Shown: positions 2,089 through 9,265 of the stretch, piece after piece
Numbering within the stretch: the first letter of the stretch is position 1
Layout: every line of letters begins with the position of its first letter
Virus record (IMG/VR): IMGVR_UViG_3300037247_001878
Coordinates: 1 to 56,927 of that record
DNA: 56,927 bases
Source of the DNA: a virus
Strand: one strand, 5' to 3'
Made by a program: the position numbers and the translations under genes
Notes under the pieces: generated by a model
Told to the model about the DNA's origin: nothing
Database searches by the model: none
What the model saw: the letters and a program-made list of their open reading frames with translations, nothing else

Positions 2089-2148
2089 TCAGTGTGTACT
2101 AGGGTCAGATGACGGGTATCAGATATCGGGTATCGAGGCTGGTTGGTG

Positions 2149-3051
2149 TCACGACCGCGGCGGGTCGAGATCGCCGCCGGCAAGGATTTTCTTGTAGAGC
2201 GGCCAGTTGCCGGGGTTCTCGTAAGAATGCCAGTGATCGCCGATACCGTTCGGATTGTCGCCGGCGACGTGGTGCCAGCCCTGGGCGGCGGCCCAGGCGC
2301 GGAATGCCGGGCGGTCGAGCTCCAGATCGCACCAGTTGTCGGGCGCACCGTTGCCTTCCGGCGAGGACCGGCCACCCAGGCCGACGCGGCCGATGAAGCC
2401 GCCGCCGAAGCCGGGCGCCGCGCGGCCGAGCTTGCCGAGCACATCGTCGGCGGGCACCACGACGTTGTAGAACCGCAGGTGGCGGCCAGCGTTTGCGGCC
2501 GTGGCGAACGCGGTCTCGGCGTATTCCGCGCCGTTGAGCAGCAGGACGCGGCGGATCGGCAGCGCCGGGTCGGCGCGGATCGCGCGCAGCGCGACCCGGG
2601 TCCCGAGCGAGTGGGCGATCAGGTCGACCGGGCCGCCGAGGCGGGCCAGCGTGGTCGCCAGCACGTTGCCGGCGTCCCAGGCCAGATCCCAGGCGCGGCG
2701 ATAGGTGAGGGCCCGGCCGTGGCGCCAGGCCTCCCAAATCGACCGTGGCCAGGAGAGCCCGGCGGGCAGGGAGTACCAGCCGAACCCGAAGCCCGGGCGG
2801 CCCGGCGGCAGGATCGTGCCGCGCCACTTCGGGTAAAGCTCGACGTGGGGGTTGTCGCGGCCGGTGGACGCCGGGTCATGTTCGAAGCCATGCACCATGA
2901 CGATCGGGTTGGCCTCGCGGCCGTCAAGGATCGAACCGGCCTCGCCGTGGGGCAGACCGCTGGCGGCGATCACCGCGCCCGGCAGGCCGTCCGGCCGCAC
3001 CGCATGGACCGCGCCGCCGCGCAGGATCGAGACGCCGGGGGCTGGGGTCAT
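2149..3051 (-). CDS. Alpha/beta-hydrolase (lipase/esterase-like)
   Basis: A 300-residue hydrolase with a recognisable catalytic set: oxyanion segment VMVHGF (51-56), nucleophile Ser148 in AHSLGT (Gly replaced by Ala in the usual elbow), an acidic residue at Asp202/203, and His273 or His275 in GIGDHWHSY. The ATG at 3051 has an AAAGG box eight bases upstream and is preferred over a TTG at 3066. No signal peptide is seen, so it probably acts in the cytoplasm. It is a single gene with its own terminator, opposite in direction to its neighbours, as expected for lysogenic cargo. The substrate is unknown; lipid or other ester cleavage is inferred from the fold. Confidence 0.75.
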   Translation of the reverse strand: MTPAPGVSILRGGAVHAVRPDGLPGAVIAASGLPHGEAGSILDGREANPIVMVHGFEHDPASTGRDNPHVELYPKWRGTILPPGRPGFGFGWYSLPAGLSWPRSIWEAWRHGRALTYRRAWDLAWDAGNVLATTLARLGGPVDLIAHSLGTRVALRAIRADPALPIRRVLLLNGAEYAETAFATAANAGRHLRFYNVVVPADDVLGKLGRAAPGFGGGFIGRVGLGGRSSPEGNGAPDNWCDLELDRPAFRAWAAAQGWHHVAGDNPNGIGDHWHSYENPGNWPLYKKILAGGDLDPPRS

Positions 3052-3152: not shown

Positions 3153-3932
3153 ATGACCCACATGCCCATGATCGCCGAGTTGATCCACCGCGGCGCGCTG
3201 TTCGTGGTCAACCACAGCGGCGGGAAGGACAGCCAGGCGATGACCGCTTATGTCCGGCAGATCGTGCCGGAGGACCAAATCCTGGTGATCCACGCACACC
3301 TGCCAGAGGTGGAGTGGGATGGCGTTATCGATCACATCGAGGCGACGATCGACGGCTTGCCCCTACGCGTCGTCCAGGCCGGCAAGACGTTTTTCCAGAT
3401 GGTCGAGCGCCGTGGCATGTGGCCGAGCCCGAGCAACCGCCAGTGCACCTCGGACTTGAAGCGCGATCCGATTGAGAAAGAGATAAGGCGAATCTTGAAG
3501 GAACGCGGTCAGTCCCTGGTCGTCAATTGCATGGGGCTCCGCGCGGAGGAGAGCGCCAGCCGCGCGCGCAAGGCCACGTTTAAACTTTCCAATCGCAACA
3601 GCAAGGCTGGGCGCGAATGGTACGACTGGCTGCCGATCCATTCCTGGATGACCGAGCAAGTCTTCAACACCATCCGTTTCGCGGGCCAGACGCCACATTG
3701 GGCCTACGCGGCGGGCATGACGCGGCTGTCTTGTGTGTTCTGCATTATGAGCAGCCGGGACGATCTCTGCACCGCCGCGCGCCTGCAACCAGATCTCTAC
3801 CGGCGCTATGTCGAGACCGAGCGCCGCTTGGACCACACGATGAACATGGCCCGGCGCCCGCTGGAAGAGGTCACTGGCATCACGGCCGAGATCGATTTGA
3901 CGGTCCCGGATTTCCTGCGCAGGGCAGTCTAA
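3153..3932 (+). CDS. PP-loop PAPS-reductase-family protein (DndC-like)
   Basis: A 259-residue protein with the pyrophosphatase P-loop SGGKDS (22-27), a conserved Cys in NRQCTSDLKRDP, the MGLRAEES box and a C-terminal CVFC pair able to hold a metal or Fe-S cluster. This family adenylates or reduces sulfur substrates; the DndC branch takes part in DNA phosphorothioation, and many phages carry orphan members of unknown role. The start has GGAGGA upstream, and the same leader (GAGGACAGACCG before ATG) recurs at the next gene. A UUCG hairpin follows the stop. A DNA- or nucleotide-modifying function is inferred, not shown; no cysteine desulfurase partner is present. Confidence 0.8.
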   Translation: MTHMPMIAELIHRGALFVVNHSGGKDSQAMTAYVRQIVPEDQILVIHAHLPEVEWDGVIDHIEATIDGLPLRVVQAGKTFFQMVERRGMWPSPSNRQCTSDLKRDPIEKEIRRILKERGQSLVVNCMGLRAEESASRARKATFKLSNRNSKAGREWYDWLPIHSWMTEQVFNTIRFAGQTPHWAYAAGMTRLSCVFCIMSSRDDLCTAARLQPDLYRRYVETERRLDHTMNMARRPLEEVTGITAEIDLTVPDFLRRAV

Positions 3933-3985: not shown

Positions 3986-4609
3986 ATGCAGACCGATTAC
4001 GACGACCTCCCCATGTCAGATACACTCCCCCGATACGAAGAGCGGCGGAAAGAGGGCCAGCGCCGTATCCGCCTTGAGAGGATCGACACCAAGGCCGAGC
4101 AACAGAAGTCCTATGAGAAACGCGATCGCAGCATCCCTGGCGACGTTGTTTGGGCACGCTCTGCTTACGAGATGTACGTTGACAGCGCCATGATCGGCTA
4201 TCTGCTTTGTGAGGGTGCCTACCGCTCGACAAGGTGGACCGTCTATTCTCTGCGGGCCGTTAAGAAGGGCTTTAACTTCCGCACGGCCCAGCGGCTTTGG
4301 GACAAGGCCTGTAACGATCCAGCTAAGCTCGGCAACTGGCTGGCCGACCACTATAAGGACGGCTCCAACTATCCGACACGCGAGACGATTGAAGCCGAAG
4401 CAAAGGCCGAGGCCGAGCGCCAAGAACAACTGCAACAGGAAATGAAAAGTGAACGTGCCGAGCGCGACAAGCGCCGCCATGAACGGCGCGCCGCCGCACA
4501 AACCGCATTGGACGGATTGCGCGAGATCGAAAAACTCAATCTCAGCAACTATCAGAAAGCCGCTCTTAGCTTCGCGATAGAAGAAGTCGGGCGGATAGCG
4601 GAAGATTGA
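3986..4609 (+). CDS. Charged coiled-coil protein of the PP-loop operon
   Basis: A 207-residue protein of unknown family. The N terminus is acidic. A central globular part contains aromatic residues (YEMYVDSAMIGYLLCEGAY and nearby). Residues about 135-175 are a strongly charged Glu/Arg/Gln coiled coil. The ATG at 3986 is chosen because GAGGACAGACCG directly precedes it, the same leader as the upstream gene. The shared leader and 53-base spacing place it in one operon with the PP-loop protein, so a partner or substrate-presenting role is possible. No catalytic motif is seen. Confidence 0.7.
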   Translation: MQTDYDDLPMSDTLPRYEERRKEGQRRIRLERIDTKAEQQKSYEKRDRSIPGDVVWARSAYEMYVDSAMIGYLLCEGAYRSTRWTVYSLRAVKKGFNFRTAQRLWDKACNDPAKLGNWLADHYKDGSNYPTRETIEAEAKAEAERQEQLQQEMKSERAERDKRRHERRAAAQTALDGLREIEKLNLSNYQKAALSFAIEEVGRIAED

Positions 4610-4638
4610 GCCATGCCCCGTCTCTTGGACCTCCGCCG

Positions 4639-4911
4639 ATGACAGCCGCCCCCGAATCGGTATATCCCGCGAGCGTGGACCACACCGAATTCCGCACCAC
4701 GCTCGCGCGCCTGGGCCTGCGCCAGGTGGATTTCGCGCGCCTGGTGGCCCACCTGTCGGGCGAGAAGCCGAACTCGGTGACGGTCAACCGCTGGGCCGTA
4801 GGCACGTGTTCGGTGCCGCCCACGGTGGCCGCGATCCTGCGCCTGTGGGAAATGCTGCCAACGGCTCGGCGGAAACAGATTCTCAAAACCGCAAGCGAGG
4901 CGACCCGCTAG
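4639..4911 (+). CDS. Cro/XRE-like HTH protein
   Basis: A 90-residue protein whose residues about 18-62 read as a helix-turn-helix (LGLRQVDFARLVAHL, then SVTVNRWAVG and PPTVAAILRLWEML). The ATG at 4639 is used although its ribosome site is weak; a TTG at 4606, coupled to the previous stop, is possible. As last gene of the plus-strand operon it is a plausible autoregulator acting on the twin palindromes at 3071-3123, which is inference. Its stop touches the stop of the convergent minus-strand lipoprotein gene with no gap. Confidence 0.65.
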   Translation: MTAAPESVYPASVDHTEFRTTLARLGLRQVDFARLVAHLSGEKPNSVTVNRWAVGTCSVPPTVAAILRLWEMLPTARRKQILKTASEATR

Positions 4912-5385: not shown

Positions 5386-5393
5386 AAAAAGTC
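5386..5393. repeat. Left 8-bp target-site duplication (AAAAAGTC)
   Basis: AAAAAGTC directly abuts the left inverted repeat and is repeated directly after the right one (9258-9265). Eight bases is the duplication length typical of the IS1595 family. Confidence 0.92.
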
Positions 5394-5417
5394 CGGTATT
5401 AGGTAGCAACCACACCT
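5394..5417 (+). repeat. Left terminal inverted repeat
   Basis: Starts CGGTATTAGGTAGCAA and ends CACCT. It matches the reverse complement of 9234-9257 with two mismatches at internal positions 17 and 19. Confidence 0.9.
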
Positions 5418-5461
5418 AAAATCCCCTCAAAATTTTCCGCGCGTTCCCATACACTTAGCCC

Positions 5462-5896
5462 ATGACGGACTACGTTGTGACAGGCCTGGTCAAGCGCCGC
5501 GCCGAACTGACCGGCGAGATAGAGCGCACGCATGAAAGCCTGCGAAAGATGCTGGCCGATCTGGAAGCGCTGGACGCGACCCTGTTGATGTTCGCGCCGG
5601 ACTTTCAGGTTGAGACCATCCGGCCCAAGGCCTTCCGTCCGCCAAAGGACTGGTCCCGGCGCGGCGAAATGACCCGTATCATCCTGTCCATACTCAGGCA
5701 GGCCGCAGAGCCGCTCACCACGCGGGATATCGCGCTACAGCTTCTTGTCGAGCGGGCCTTGGACAAGAGCGATCAGAAGCTACTGCGGCTTATGACCAAG
5801 CGCGTTGGCGTGGCGCTCAGGCTTCAACGTGAAAAGGGCGCGGCGCGGTGCGAACAGGGGCCGGGGCAGTATATGCTTTGGGAAATAACGCGTTAG
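5462..5896 (+). CDS. Transposon passenger protein, coiled coil plus winged-helix-like domain
   Basis: 144 residues. The N terminus (about 8-45) is a coiled coil (RRAELTGEIERTHESLRKML). A linker with RPKAFRPPKDWSRRGEMTR leads to a winged-helix-like C-terminal half (LSILRQAAEPLTTRDIALQL, then a basic MTKRVGVALRLQ and QGPGQYMLWE). I recall very similar small proteins beside transposases in alphaproteobacteria, but their role is unknown. It is the first gene after the left inverted repeat, has no close upstream gene, and may regulate the passengers or assist transposition. Confidence 0.75.
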   Translation: MTDYVVTGLVKRRAELTGEIERTHESLRKMLADLEALDATLLMFAPDFQVETIRPKAFRPPKDWSRRGEMTRIILSILRQAAEPLTTRDIALQLLVERALDKSDQKLLRLMTKRVGVALRLQREKGAARCEQGPGQYMLWEITR

Positions 5897-5952
5897 CGCA
5901 CAAACCAAGAACACGCTCGACTCTTCCCTGATTTTGTGGTCTGAACCGAGAA

Positions 5953-5979
5953 ACCCCCGACATGTGGCGTGCCGGGGGT
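5953..5979 (+). other. Stable hairpin between passenger genes
   Basis: ACCCCCGACA and TGCCGGGGGT form a stem (one non-pairing position) around a seven-base loop. Weak T content follows, so it may be an inefficient terminator or an mRNA end-protecting structure after the 5462-5896 gene. Confidence 0.4.
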
Positions 5980-6011
5980 CCTAGTCAAACTGCCAGCAGA
6001 AGGAGATTCAA

Positions 6012-6362
6012 ATGGCAGATTATATTGATTGGCCCTCTGGCGGGGCCACTTACCGTTACTGGTTTCTAGCGAATCCGTCAAGTGCTTCGGGCATCAAGGC
6101 GGTGGCAGGAAACTACATGTTTGTTCGGTTGGCCAACGATGGCTGGGTCCCAGTTTACATCGGGATCGCTGATGATCTACAAGACCGCATCCCCAGTCAC
6201 GAACGCTGGAAAGAGGCGGTTGCGTTGGGGGCCACAGAAGTTATGGCCCACACTCAAGCAAACCGGGCCAAGCGCGAAACGGAAGAAAAGGCTCTTATCA
6301 AGCATTGGAACCCGCCGCTAAACATCCAGCATCGCAGACGAGCAAGATTGCTCGCCGGTTAG
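6012..6362 (+). CDS. GIY-YIG nuclease-fold protein
   Basis: 116 residues. The two family strands read GNYMFVRL (33-40, with GNY in place of GIY) and VPVYIGIADD (47-56). Arg59 sits where the catalytic Arg belongs (DRIPSH), a Glu at 89-92 fits the metal-binding Glu, and NPPLN (100-104) matches the terminal Asn box. The ATG is preceded by a strong AAGGAGATT site. These proteins nick or cut DNA; the small stand-alone ones are mostly uncharacterised. In this transposon it could aid target or end processing, or act as a selfish nuclease. Activity is plausible but unproven because the first motif is altered. Confidence 0.75.
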   Translation: MADYIDWPSGGATYRYWFLANPSSASGIKAVAGNYMFVRLANDGWVPVYIGIADDLQDRIPSHERWKEAVALGATEVMAHTQANRAKRETEEKALIKHWNPPLNIQHRRRARLLAG

Positions 6363-6391
6363 GGTTTCGATCATCAAACTCTGACTCGGGC

Positions 6392-6417
6392 GTGGCGGGC
6401 TGCCTTTGGCCCGCCAC
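6392..6417 (+). terminator. Terminator-like hairpin after GIY-YIG gene
   Basis: GTGGCGGGC and GCCCGCCAC form a perfect nine-base stem with an eight-base loop, 30 bases after the stop codon. The downstream stretch has only a short T run (GTTTCG), so it may be a weak or Rho-assisted terminator. Confidence 0.5.
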
Positions 6418-6497
6418 AACCCGTTTCGCCGGTGGATTGTTAACAACCAACTTAAGCCTTTCAAGGCGCTGTTCCATGCTGAGAATTCCATCACAAC

Positions 6498-6526
6498 TTG
6501 AGGTTATTAATGTCGCGCCCCATAAT
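6498..6526 (+). promoter_or_regulatory. Promoter of the class II tRNA
   Basis: TTGAGG (6498-6503), 17-base spacer, CATAAT (6521-6526). The tRNA 5' end follows only nine bases after the -10 box, so transcription would start almost at the mature 5' end. Confidence 0.7.
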
Positions 6527-6534
6527 GCGCGCTA

Positions 6535-6623
6535 GGGGGTGTGGTGGAATTGGTAGACACGGGTGATTTGTAATCTCCTGGGGTTGATCCCCCGTGCAGG
6601 TTCGAGTCCTGTCACCCCTACCA
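6535..6623 (+). tRNA. Class II tRNA with leucine-type body and UGU anticodon
   Basis: 89 nt including encoded CCA. The acceptor GGGGGTG pairs with CACCCCT (G1-T72 wobble); the discriminator is A73. The D arm GTG/CAC carries the AATTGGTAGA loop typical of bacterial tRNA-Leu. The anticodon stem GGTGA/TCTCC has one T-T mismatch. Loop TTTGTAA places TGT at 34-36 (reading ACA, Thr). The variable arm is GGGG-TTGAT-CCCC, and the T arm is GCAGG-TTCGAGT-CCTGT. LeuRS in bacteria relies on A73 and the body rather than the anticodon, so mischarging with leucine is conceivable. A promoter sits directly upstream. It may be a true mis-anticodoned tRNA or a non-decoding tRNA-like RNA. Confidence 0.82.
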
Positions 6624-6657
6624 CCTAACCCATTGAAATACTTAAAAACTTTCGTTA

Positions 6658-6686
6658 TTGATTTTGAAACCAGGGAATCGTATATT
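6658..6686 (+). promoter_or_regulatory. Promoter of predicted small RNA
   Basis: TTGATT (6658-6663), a 17-base spacer and TATATT (6681-6686) make a good sigma70-type promoter in an A+T-rich stretch, 35 bases after the tRNA. The predicted start is near 6693. Confidence 0.65.
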
Positions 6687-6692
6687 ATGTGA

Positions 6693-6806
6693 AGGTTGGT
6701 CTCTCGGAGCTGGTCCGATTTAATCACGGATCAGTTTACAACTACTGACCTAAGAGGAATTTGAGTGCGGGCCAATTGTCGAGAGACGGCCCGCACTTAC
6801 CTTTTC
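6693..6806 (+). ncRNA. Predicted structured small RNA ending in a terminator
   Basis: About 114 nt between a good promoter and a stem-loop. Visible pairings are GGTCCG with CGGATC (one G-U) around 6713-6732, TCAGT with ACTGA around 6731-6748, and a final ten-base stem (6764-6773 with 6788-6797). The 5' segment GTCTCTCG (6699-6706) is exactly complementary to CGAGAGAC in the loop of the final stem (6780-6787), so a pseudoknot or terminator switch is possible. No convincing reading frame fills it. Family unknown; a leader or antisense role toward the opposite-strand gene after it is an alternative. Confidence 0.5.
6764..6797 (+). terminator. Terminator-like stem-loop of the small RNA
   Basis: AGTGCGGGCC and GGCCCGCACT pair over ten bases with a 14-base loop, then TTACCTTTTC. 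The loop contains CGAGAGAC, complementary to the RNA's own 5' region. The stem could also end transcription of the minus-strand gene that stops at 6842. Confidence 0.55.
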
Positions 6807-6841
6807 AACCCGCCCCTGCCGATGCCCCTCCCGCGAAAAGA

Positions 6842-7069
6842 TCAGTCGTCCGAAATCCGCAACGTCTGACACCCGGCCGCCGCAAGGCACTGGATCAGGA
6901 ACACGGCACTAAACCCGCCCCGGCTGATCTTGTTGTTCAGATTCCGCTCGGTCTCATGAATTTCCATCGCCTCTAGGCGTACAGATAAGTCACGATACGT
7001 CACGTTTCGGCGCTTTAGCTCGGCTTTCAGCAGACCCTTGACCCGGGCTTGCCACTCGGTGTCCGGCAT
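6842..7069 (-). CDS. DUF6471-like small DNA-binding protein
   Basis: 75 residues (MPDTEWQARVKGLLKAELKR at the start, then a helix-turn-helix-like middle and HETERNLNNKISRGGF with the C-terminal CLAAAGCQTLRI). The sequence matches my recollection of DUF6471 proteins, which are short XRE-like factors often beside mobile genes. It is divergent from the transposase and shares with it an intergenic region holding three copies of ATCACCATAT, so it probably represses one or both promoters. That regulatory role is inferred. Confidence 0.75.
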   Translation of the reverse strand: MPDTEWQARVKGLLKAELKRRNVTYRDLSVRLEAMEIHETERNLNNKISRGGFSAVFLIQCLAAAGCQTLRISDD

Positions 7070-7095
7070 ACGGTATCTCCGATTTCAGGGGTTAT

Positions 7096-7177
7096 ATCAC
7101 CATATTCGATATATAAGCCCTTGAATTCGAGATACAAGATCACCATATCTGATGGTAGACACCCCGGATATGGTGAT
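7096..7177. promoter_or_regulatory. Operator array ATCACCATAT (three copies) at the transposase promoter
   Basis: ATCACCATAT occurs at 7096-7105 and 7139-7148 and, inverted, at 7168-7177. A promoter TTGAAT (7121-7126), 17 bases, CATATC overlaps the second copy, and the third copy lies just before the transposase ATG. The array fits autoregulation of transposition by the divergently encoded DUF6471-like protein. Confidence 0.6.
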
Positions 7178-7181
7178 AAAA

Positions 7182-8147
7182 ATGACCCAGCACTTCCTAC
7201 TTTCCGCCCAAGCTCGGACCCTCAGCCTGGCCAAGGTCATGCGGCTGTCCGACCGAGAGGCTTACCAGACGTTCGCGCGCATCCGCTGGGCTCAGAACGA
7301 CGGCGAGCCCTTTTGCCCACGCTGCGGCTGCGTAGCGGTCTACACGTACCGCTCACGGCCTATCTACAAGTGCCAGGGCTGCGAAAGCCAGTTCTCGATC
7401 ACCACGGATACGATCTTCGCCAGTCGCAAGCTGCCGATCCGCGATTTGCTGGCCGCCATCGCGATCTTCGTGAACGGGGCCAAGGGCATTTCGGCGCTGC
7501 AATTGAGCCGTGACCTGGACTGCCAGTACAAGACGGCTTTCGTCCTGGCTCACAAGTTGCGCGAAGCCATGGGCGCCGAAATGAAGGGCCGCAAGCTGTC
7601 CGGCCATGTCGAAGTCGATGGCGCGTACTTCGGCGGCTATGTGCGACCCGAAAACCGCAAGGAGGACCGCGTAGATCGCCGTTTGTCCGAGCATCGTTCC
7701 GGCAAGCGCCGGGTCGTTATCATCATGCGCGAGCGTGGCGGTAAGTCCTTTCCGTTCGTTTGCCAGACAGAAGATCAGTCCGTACCCGTGATCCGCGCGC
7801 GCGTCCTGTCGGGCACCACGGTTTATGCCGACGAGTCCTCAAGCTGGGATGCGCTACACGCCAAGTACGACATGCACCGCGTCAATCACTCGATCATGTT
7901 CCAGGACGAAGGCAAGGCCGATACCAATCAGGCCGAAAGCTACTTCTCCCGTCTGCGTCGCGCGGAGATTGGCACACACCACCACATTAGCGGGCGGTAT
8001 CTGCACTCCTACGCGAACGAAATGGCTTGGCGTGAAGATCACCGCCGCAAGCCGAACGGAACGCAGTATCTCCTAGTCGCCGCTGCCGCTCTTGGCCATC
8101 CGGTGTCGCGGGAATGGAAAGGCTATTGGCAGCGGAGCGTGAACTAG
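7182..8147 (+). CDS. IS1595-family (ISXO2-like) DDE transposase
   Basis: 321 residues from ATG 7182; the typical family opening MTQHFLLSAQARTLSL fits this start better than the ATG at 7152. A zinc ribbon has Cys45/Cys48 and Cys64/Cys67. The ISXO2-type catalytic domain follows, with Asp146 (VEVDGAYFGG), Asp217 (VYADESSSWD) and the Asn249/Glu252 block (TNQAESYFSRLRR), then GTHHHIS. It cuts and pastes the element by recognising the 24-bp ends. All key residues are present and the element is complete, so it may still be mobile. The ribosome site is weak, as is usual for transposases. Confidence 0.93.
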   Translation: MTQHFLLSAQARTLSLAKVMRLSDREAYQTFARIRWAQNDGEPFCPRCGCVAVYTYRSRPIYKCQGCESQFSITTDTIFASRKLPIRDLLAAIAIFVNGAKGISALQLSRDLDCQYKTAFVLAHKLREAMGAEMKGRKLSGHVEVDGAYFGGYVRPENRKEDRVDRRLSEHRSGKRRVVIIMRERGGKSFPFVCQTEDQSVPVIRARVLSGTTVYADESSSWDALHAKYDMHRVNHSIMFQDEGKADTNQAESYFSRLRRAEIGTHHHISGRYLHSYANEMAWREDHRRKPNGTQYLLVAAAALGHPVSREWKGYWQRSVN

Positions 8148-8202
8148 CTTGAACAACAAGATTAGTTGAGGCAGGGTGCTACAACGTTAGACTAGACGAT
8201 TC

Positions 8203-9138
8203 TTAGTCACCTTTAAATAGCTCTGGAATTCTCAAATCAAAAAGAGCGCTCAAAAAGGCGCCTGAAATCAACGCGATAACTATCCAAATCATTTTTGCGC
8301 CAAAAAAGAGGCCGCTCATCTTATCAAGTCTAGTGCGAATTGTTTCGTCCTCTTGTTTTCGCGCGTCTTTTTCTTCTCTTAGTCCCTCCAGCAATTTATC
8401 AATTTGCCGACTTTGCTTCTCAAGAGACTCCCGAAAGGTGCCCTTCCAATCTCGATCCTCGCGAACCTCTGTAGTGAGCGCGGTAAGCTGACTTTCCAAA
8501 TTGGCTACGGCATCGGCCAAAGAGGTAAGTTCTACTGGCTTGTAGTTTTTGATCAGGGTAATCAAGTCATCGGGAAACTCGCCCTCCGTTGTGGTCTCAG
8601 GGGTAGGAAAGTGAGTCTGTTCTTCATCGGAAAGCTGATAGAATAGTGCAGCTATGAGCTTCTTTCTAGGTCGAAGCACGAATGGCGTCGAAGAGACATT
8701 ATAGAGTCCAAGCCACAATGGTCCCCTGTATAAAGGGTCAATGCAGAACCCACCAAGTGCTATAATCCCAGCATGACTAATTTTTCTCTTTGGGCTCAAA
8801 ACCGCAATTATATTTTCTGGCAGATCCAATTCCTCAATTGTTCGGACGAATACTACTTCTCCGGGTTCAATTGTAACTGAAGCCCTTTCCATCTCGGATA
8901 ATTTTTCGATGTCTACGGGCTGTCCAAAAGAGGCTTTCAATATCTGAGGGCTCAGCCGAAAGTCATACTTTGCACCCTCTACGCACTGTGAATTCCCGTG
9001 CTTGATGAAGCCATCCTCGACGGCGCCACGCAATCCGTCGCCCGTAATCAGCATTGCCATCGGCCAGGCTTCCCCCACGCCTGTAGTCGGCGGCTCGTGA
9101 TGGTCCACAACATCTTGTGGTTCTTGACTCGTTTGCAT
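8203..9138 (-). CDS. dCTP-deaminase/dUTPase-fold protein with coiled coil and C-terminal membrane anchor
   Basis: 311 residues. Residues about 30-180 follow the Dcd/dUTPase fold (YDFRLSP; PGEVVFVRTIEELDLP; AVLSPKRKISHAGI; IDPLYRGPLWLGLYN; LRPRKKLIAALFYQL). Aligned by eye to E. coli Dcd (IDPGWSGCIVLEFYN), the catalytic Glu is Gly144 here, while the motif-3 Asp (IDPLY) remains. A charged coiled coil spans about 205-265 and one membrane span 283-300. Dcd-fold enzymes lower dCTP in anti-phage defence; this one may bind nucleotides or hydrolyse dUTP instead. The region is A+T-rich. A TATAAT box (9196-9191) lies upstream. Confidence 0.7.
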   Translation of the reverse strand: MQTSQEPQDVVDHHEPPTTGVGEAWPMAMLITGDGLRGAVEDGFIKHGNSQCVEGAKYDFRLSPQILKASFGQPVDIEKLSEMERASVTIEPGEVVFVRTIEELDLPENIIAVLSPKRKISHAGIIALGGFCIDPLYRGPLWLGLYNVSSTPFVLRPRKKLIAALFYQLSDEEQTHFPTPETTTEGEFPDDLITLIKNYKPVELTSLADAVANLESQLTALTTEVREDRDWKGTFRESLEKQSRQIDKLLEGLREEKDARKQEDETIRTRLDKMSGLFFGAKMIWIVIALISGAFLSALFDLRIPELFKGD

Positions 9139-9190
9139 CCTACACCTGCCGGTTCACCACGTCGAGCCGTTTTCGAATCACCTATTGCCT

Positions 9191-9196
9191 ATTATA
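9191..9196 (-). promoter_or_regulatory. -10 box of the dCTP-deaminase-fold gene
   Basis: A perfect TATAAT on the minus strand lies 52 bases upstream of the ATG at 9138, in a strongly A+T-rich stretch. No convincing -35 box is seen 17 bases away. Confidence 0.5.
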
Positions 9197-9233
9197 GAAC
9201 AAATACAGAACATTGGTATAGCAAAAAGTATGG

Positions 9234-9257
9234 AGGTGCGCTTGCTACCTAATACCG
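9234..9257 (-). repeat. Right terminal inverted repeat
   Basis: Reads AGGTGCGC then TTGCTACCTAATACCG on the plus strand. It is the inverted partner of 5394-5417 with two mismatches. Confidence 0.9.
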
Positions 9258-9265
9258 AAAAAGTC
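9258..9265. repeat. Right 8-bp target-site duplication (AAAAAGTC)
   Basis: Direct repeat of 5386-5393. Removing the transposon and one copy restores a continuous sequence between the endolysin gene and the small lysis genes. Confidence 0.92.

Follow-up and report, generated by a model that had tools for sequence, protein, structure and literature searches.

Transfer RNAs (tRNAs) that combine the body of one amino acid with the anticodon of another are known from bacteria and from nematodes. The allo-tRNAs of Clostridia, Proteobacteria and Acidobacteria are charged according to the identity of the body and not of the anticodon; their anticodons are very diverse and include ochre, and some of them possess the alanine-type G3-U70 pair (PMC7609411). 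The nev-tRNAs of nematodes belong to class II and have leucine identity but anticodons of other amino acids (Gly CCC, Ile UAU); they are leucylated in vitro (PMC4300185). Here we analyse a tRNA of this sort in the virus record IMGVR_UViG_3300037247_001878, studied over its whole length of 56,927 nucleotides (the window): a leucine-type class II tRNA with the threonine anticodon UGU, which belongs to the cargo of an IS1595-family transposon.

Of the kinds known, allo-tRNAs come nearest to the window tRNA. They share with it the foreign anticodon and, as its sequence suggests, charging by body identity. However, most of them have serine identity and an acceptor branch of 12 bp divided 8/4 or 9/3, whereas the window tRNA is of leucine type and its acceptor geometry is 7/5 by model alignment. 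It also lies in a defined IS1595-family transposon, unlike the allo-tRNAs, among which a pseudogene overlapping a transposon-related open reading frame (ORF) has been reported (PMC7609411). The nev-tRNAs agree with it in class and, as far as the sequence tells, in identity, but they are nuclear genes of nematodes with other anticodons, while the window tRNA is the cargo of a bacterial transposon on a phage-like contig. Known IS1595 insertion sequences (IS) with passenger genes resemble the window element in the transposase domains PF12762 and PF12760, the inverted repeats, the 8-bp duplication and the presence of cargo genes. In the open-access literature we found no tRNA or tRNA-like cargo of IS1595 elements.

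An earlier note, made from the letters of the window, had described a complete tRNA with an encoded CCA end, a tRNA-Leu-like body and a UGU anticodon, and all three claims hold. ARAGORN finds a single tRNA in the window, on the plus strand with the anticodon TGT; the Rfam model RF00005 matches positions 6535-6620 with 50.1 bits (E 8e-8, gathering score 29), and a tRNA model built here from alphaproteobacterial tRNAs covers the full length including CCA with 54.6 bits. The anticodon loop (32-38) reads UUUGUAA. The body has the long variable arm of class II, a Leu-type D arm, A14 and A73, and the leucine identity elements thus appear to be in place. When it was compared, with the anticodon loop masked, to the tRNAs of three alphaproteobacterial genomes, the six nearest bodies were all Leu, the best being Leu UAG with 79-80% identity. 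The anticodon is neither NAG nor YAA as in leucine tRNAs, and with its class II shape and Leu neighbours the molecule also lacks the class I body and acceptor features of a tRNA-Thr. The odd pairs pointed out earlier were found again: U29-U41 is the only non-standard stem pair in the model alignments, and the first pair is read from the sequence as G1-U72. A shifted register giving the Tyr anticodon GUA was rejected, because it creates two stem mismatches rather than one, and because the body is of Leu and not of Tyr type. The upstream promoter that had been proposed is supported as well: a sigma-70-like site, TTGAGG-17-CATAAT, ends 8 bases before the tRNA (three such sites were found vs 0.4 expected in shuffles). 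Near relatives of this tRNA were not found in the phage or plasmid records searched, nor were close homologues with either kind of anticodon. A tRNA of the Brevibacillus phage Jenst (L003:1995-2083, 89-91 nt), annotated as His (GUG), is similar to the leucine-type query and is perhaps another mismatch of body and anticodon.

The window also encodes an integrase, a terminase large subunit, a portal and a tail tape-measure protein, and the contig is a phage or prophage of bacterial type. The mobile element suspected in the earlier note can now be named more precisely, as the tRNA is cargo of an intact transposon of 3,864 bp (5394-9257), which overlaps a GC-poor stretch of the contig. A transposase with zinc ribbon and DDE domain, terminal inverted repeats and an 8-bp target duplication place this element in the IS1595 family, and its inverted-repeat consensus also bounds 25 further IS1595 elements, whose 8-bp duplications are exact or nearly so. 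That the tRNA merely neighbours a smaller IS (6673 onward) was considered and dropped once the 24-nt repeats and the target duplication had been found; for the GGGAAT site at 6673 the window offers no partner repeat.

According to the earlier note, homologues with ordinary leucine anticodons would have exposed the window tRNA as a lone mutant. We searched 84,980 species genomes with a pattern that combined a Leu-type D arm, an NGU anticodon and a T loop. Only four of its 13 matches are real tRNAs, all with UGU and all from one uncultured Roseovarius. Each lies in a repeated element of 4,545 bp, about 40 bases in from the left end; this element encodes an IS1595-family transposase, and its ends read GGGAATTATATACYAAAGTCACA. 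The four copies differ in their flanks and are identical to one another over up to 4.5 kb; among the elements compared, several identical copies were seen only for this relative. A Leu-bodied UGU tRNA thus exists in a second transposon, and the window tRNA is not a lone mutant. The two transposases are 28% identical and the two tRNAs agree in 57 of 89 positions, therefore the elements represent separate lineages. Because of this tRNA divergence, and as there is no close homologue, UGU is recurrent and need not be conserved by descent. The recurrence does not extend to the stem mismatch, which in the Roseovarius tRNA is at 27-43 and not at 29-41 (the tRNA of element L101 is mismatched at 29-41). 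The Roseovarius tRNA has a weak acceptor stem and no CCA. Its genome possesses ordinary tRNA-Thr genes (GGU, UGU, CGU) and therefore does not need the extra UGU tRNA for decoding. The excess of Thr anticodons is not evidence, since the window was chosen for UGU and the scan was aimed at NGU only; the unbiased part is that the sole genome match sits in an IS1595-family element. A viral pattern search for Leu-type NGU tRNAs found only interrupted Leu-like tRNA genes: L007:6980, L008:1587 and L010:2309 (minus strand) are 5′ halves with the T arm far downstream, as if interrupted by an intron at the anticodon loop. In the Roseovarius element an IS630-like insertion (L025:3690-4815), common to the copies compared there, splits the ORF of the coiled-coil winged-helix accessory protein described below.

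Further elements were collected from viral contigs and alphaproteobacterial genomes by transposase and repeat searches (Table 1). Seven of the 12 distinct cargo tRNAs are mismatched by structural class alone. Five of these are class II tRNAs (window, Roseovarius, L228, L089, L145) with anticodons that no class II isotype uses, and two are class I tRNAs with the Ser anticodon GCU (L145, L165). For the other five the mismatch is a weaker claim, as it depends on body similarity. The body classifier was right for 77 of the 88 tRNAs of its three reference genomes. Of 19 phage tRNAs outside elements it assigned only 7 correctly, and it failed with most class I tRNAs of phages; calls of class I bodies are therefore treated cautiously, and the argument leans on class II shape and the class I/Ser conflicts. 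L236 and L328 are sister elements, both with a Cys-like body and an Ala anticodon. Position 33 is U in every cargo cloverleaf and position 37 is A in all except L075, while the bodies mostly diverge by 15-30%. Terminator-like hairpins with T runs follow the tRNAs of L228, L236 and L328; an encoded CCA is absent from most copies. The UUA anticodon of the second L145 tRNA, which is also part of an IS1595-type element, is that of an ochre suppressor, and in L089 complementary flanks extend the acceptor stem (21-nt arms, 95%). A different accumulation of tRNA genes was seen on a Jeotgalibacillus malaysiensis plasmid (L005), with 19 in 6 kb including one four-base anticodon call; the plasmid table annotates none under the match.

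Ten elements encode a shorter RNA that has a 7-bp acceptor stem, a 5-bp T arm, an ACC end and a minimal D arm but lacks a normal anticodon arm. G3-U70, A73, C74 and C75 are kept in all ten, and judged by its letters the combination of G3-U70 and A73 is an alanine identity element. All acceptor and T-arm pairs form wherever letters are present in the alignment (100%), in seven pairs both partners vary, and the covariation of 0.58 compares with 0.16 in shuffles. A structural scan for acceptor and T arm gave 8 matches in 159 kb of element DNA, compared with 2 in 339 kb of flanks and 0.05 in shuffled elements; among the 8 are the window tRNA, one tRNA of L165, and L175 and L198, which have one and the same sequence. 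Most of the ten have a UNUCCA-like conserved stretch in the place of the anticodon arm. While the window tRNA itself is not of the transfer-messenger RNA (tmRNA) type, these RNAs are like the tRNA-like domain of tmRNA in G3-U70, A73, T arm and reduced D arm, and thus look like an alanine-chargeable tRNA-like domain; a tmRNA reading frame or tag was not seen, but no search was aimed at it.

Table 1. Features of the window transposon and RNA genes of related IS1595 elements
Source	Feature	Position	Strand	Remarks
Window	Target-site duplication AAAAAGTC, left copy	5386-5393		exact match to 9258-9265, outside inverted repeats
Window	Left terminal inverted repeat CGGTATTAGGTAGCAACCACACCT	5394-5417	+	24 nt, 92% complementary to 9234-9257
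Window	cc-wHTH (coiled-coil plus winged-helix-like, predicted) accessory protein, 144 aa	5462-5896	+	homologues beside IS1595 transposases
Window	GIY-YIG-like protein, 116 aa	6012-6362	+	PF20815 E 8e-6
Window	Sigma-70-like promoter TTGAGG-N17-CATAAT	6498-6526	+	directly upstream of tRNA
Window	Class II leucine-type tRNA, UGU anticodon, CCA encoded	6535-6623	+	ARAGORN, covariance models, body comparison
Window	Anticodon TGT, reads ACA, loop TTTGTAA	6569-6571	+	ARAGORN, anticodon at gene position 35
Window	DUF6471 protein, 75 aa	6842-7069	-	PF20075 E 6e-31
Window	IS1595-family (ISXO2-like) transposase, 331 aa	7152-8147	+	PF12762 E 2e-41, PF12760 E 1e-10
Window	dCTP deaminase/dUTPase-like cargo protein, 311 aa	8203-9138	-	PF22769 E 3e-13; phrog_1663
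Window	Right terminal inverted repeat	9234-9257	-	pairs with 5394-5417
Window	Target-site duplication AAAAAGTC, right copy	9258-9265		same letters as left copy
L101	tRNA, Arg-like body, CGU
L075	tRNA, uncertain body, GGU
L165	tRNA, class I body, GCU			between matching repeats
L165	second tRNA, GUU			between matching repeats
L145	tRNA, Arg-like body (class I), GCU			between 117-nt inverted repeats
L145	tRNA, Leu body, UUA	2145-2232		between 117-nt inverted repeats
L089	tRNA, Leu body, GUC	6971-7087		between matching repeats, without target duplication
L228	tRNA, Ser body, CCU
L236	tRNA, Cys-like body (U73), CGC
L328	tRNA, Cys-like body (U73), UGC in model register			ARAGORN reads GCA
L076	tRNA-like RNA	4483-4554
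L075	tRNA-like RNA	4478-4549
L092	tRNA-like RNA	4573-4643
L078	tRNA-like RNA	4592-4662
L086	tRNA-like RNA	4553-4625
L175	tRNA-like RNA	923-995
L221	tRNA-like RNA	6277-6348
L233	tRNA-like RNA	2597-2669
L232	tRNA-like RNA	3572-3644
L326	tRNA-like RNA	761-832

Among the cargo proteins the 144-aa protein has no Pfam match above the cut-off, and its coiled-coil plus winged-helix-like (cc-wHTH) fold is predicted. Its homologues lie next to IS1595 transposases in plasmids of Skermanella and Rhodovastum, and those in the closest viral elements are 73-80% identical. Small ORFs resembling the DUF6471 gene in position and sequence precede the transposase in L101, L089 and L236. In L075, L326 and L233 a second coiled-coil ORF immediately precedes the tRNA-like RNA. 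Outside the transposon, a 3′ tRNA part ending in CCA (1833-1907) directly follows the integrase gene (792-1832) and looks like the phage attachment site. Within the transposon, GGGAATCGTATATTATGTG at 6673-6691 resembles the inverted repeat of the Roseovarius element; it is partnerless in the window and possibly a relic of another IS end.

Leucine, serine and alanine are the identities whose synthetases do without the anticodon. Leucyl-tRNA synthetase requires A73 and A14, and the anticodon arm is dispensable for aminoacylation (PMC9976931); the identity elements for all three amino acids have been described (PMC9976931, PMC7609411). The explanation we favour, with a confidence that falls slightly short of even, is that the window tRNA receives leucine and, at a low level, misreads ACA. 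Its own promoter would drive transcription, its processing would be that of an ordinary tRNA, and the host leucyl-tRNA synthetase, for which the anticodon would not be required, would charge it. The tRNA could then read ACA, and perhaps other ACN codons by wobble, in competition with the host tRNA-Thr, and the effect would be a weak missense suppression with an occasional Leu at ACA. Allo-tRNAs with serine identity and foreign anticodons do insert serine in E. coli (PMC7609411). As Leu, Ser and Ala cover most cargo RNAs, the selected property may be charging despite a foreign or missing anticodon, and aminoacylation independent of a matching anticodon appears to be what the cargo RNAs have in common. 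The transposon might benefit from mild mistranslation, from regulation together with the cc-wHTH protein or from protection against a tRNA-targeting enzyme.

Several observations weigh against leucine misreading. The minimum-energy fold of the window tRNA is not a cloverleaf, so the case for a tRNA rests on covariance models, and the molecule has an anticodon-stem mismatch and a G-U first pair. Only two of 40 Rhodobacterales element loci carry a tRNA or tRNA-like RNA, and most elements have neither. For the nev-tRNAs, although they are charged with Leu in vitro, no mistranslation could be detected in vivo (PMC4300185). ACA accounts for few of the Thr codons in the phage genes (22 of 577) and for a larger share in the element (10 of 54). 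The ACA positions in the element's transposase and cc-wHTH genes align to non-leucine residues of homologues. A private recoding of ACA as Leu in the element's own genes was rejected for this reason, and the element is apparently not dependent on recoding. Finally, since the ten tRNA-like RNAs have no anticodon arm that could be used, decoding cannot account for the RNA class as a whole.

This last point leads to a serious rival, which we nevertheless consider rather unlikely: a non-decoding structural RNA of the transposon that acts in regulation, RNA end formation or transposition control with the cc-wHTH protein. RNase P and RNase Z would release it, it would perhaps be charged, and its anticodon would be largely free to vary. 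The tRNA-like RNAs of related elements, reduced to the acceptor/T-arm half with G3-U70 and ACC, fit this, as does their place directly downstream of the second coiled-coil ORF in L075, L326 and L233. In Roseovarius and L145 a tRNA, the cc-wHTH ORF and a second tRNA or tRNA-like RNA follow in a row, and anticodons vary among elements with similar cc-wHTH proteins. However, the cloverleaf members hold decoding-competent loops, with U33 and nearly always A37, and the sisters L236 and L328 have retained their anticodon family.

Less probable is that leucine tRNA genes were captured, lost their function and drifted, which would make UGU meaningless. The G-U first pair and stem mismatch of the window copy, the weak acceptor stem and missing CCA of the Roseovarius copy, the lack of CCA in most other copies and the many tRNA-free elements could be signs of such decay. 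Against this, cloverleaf, T loop and loop rules persist despite substantial divergence, the seven copies mismatched by class have intact loops, promoter-like and terminator-like signals stand beside several copies, and the four Roseovarius copies are identical within a recently moved element.

We think it quite improbable that the RNA is a decoy or replacement tRNA that shields the element or its phage from a tRNA-cleaving defence enzyme or toxin, with a foreign body and a loop that imitates tRNA-Thr. A genuine alphaproteobacterial tRNA-Thr(UGU) does have the same loop TGATTTGTAATC as the window tRNA, and phages meet tRNA-cleaving defences and carry counter-defence loci (PMC13096335), but the anticodons of the family span many isotypes (Thr, Ser, Asn, Asp, Ala, Arg, stop), the tRNA-like RNAs have none, and no nuclease partner was identified in the element. 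A mimic with an NGU loop that threonyl-tRNA synthetase (ThrRS) would read, and that would thereby sense or sequester the enzyme as the thrS mRNA leader does (PMC9976931), matches the four cargo tRNAs with Thr anticodons (UGU twice, CGU, GGU) and is very improbable, as eight of 12 are non-Thr and the Thr count is inflated by the NGU search that found the window and Roseovarius tRNAs.

Naturally occurring tRNAs with mismatched body and anticodon are rare. Finding them repeatedly in one transposon family, beside a shared partner protein, makes a testable system of what was an oddity. Tentatively, we propose that a branch of IS1595 carries dedicated aminoacylatable RNAs, namely chimeric tRNAs and alanine-type tRNA-like RNAs, which together with the cc-wHTH protein may form a translation-linked module, either mistranslating or regulatory. 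This raises the question whether charged, misreading RNAs serve mobile elements in altering translation, in self-regulation or in resistance to defence.
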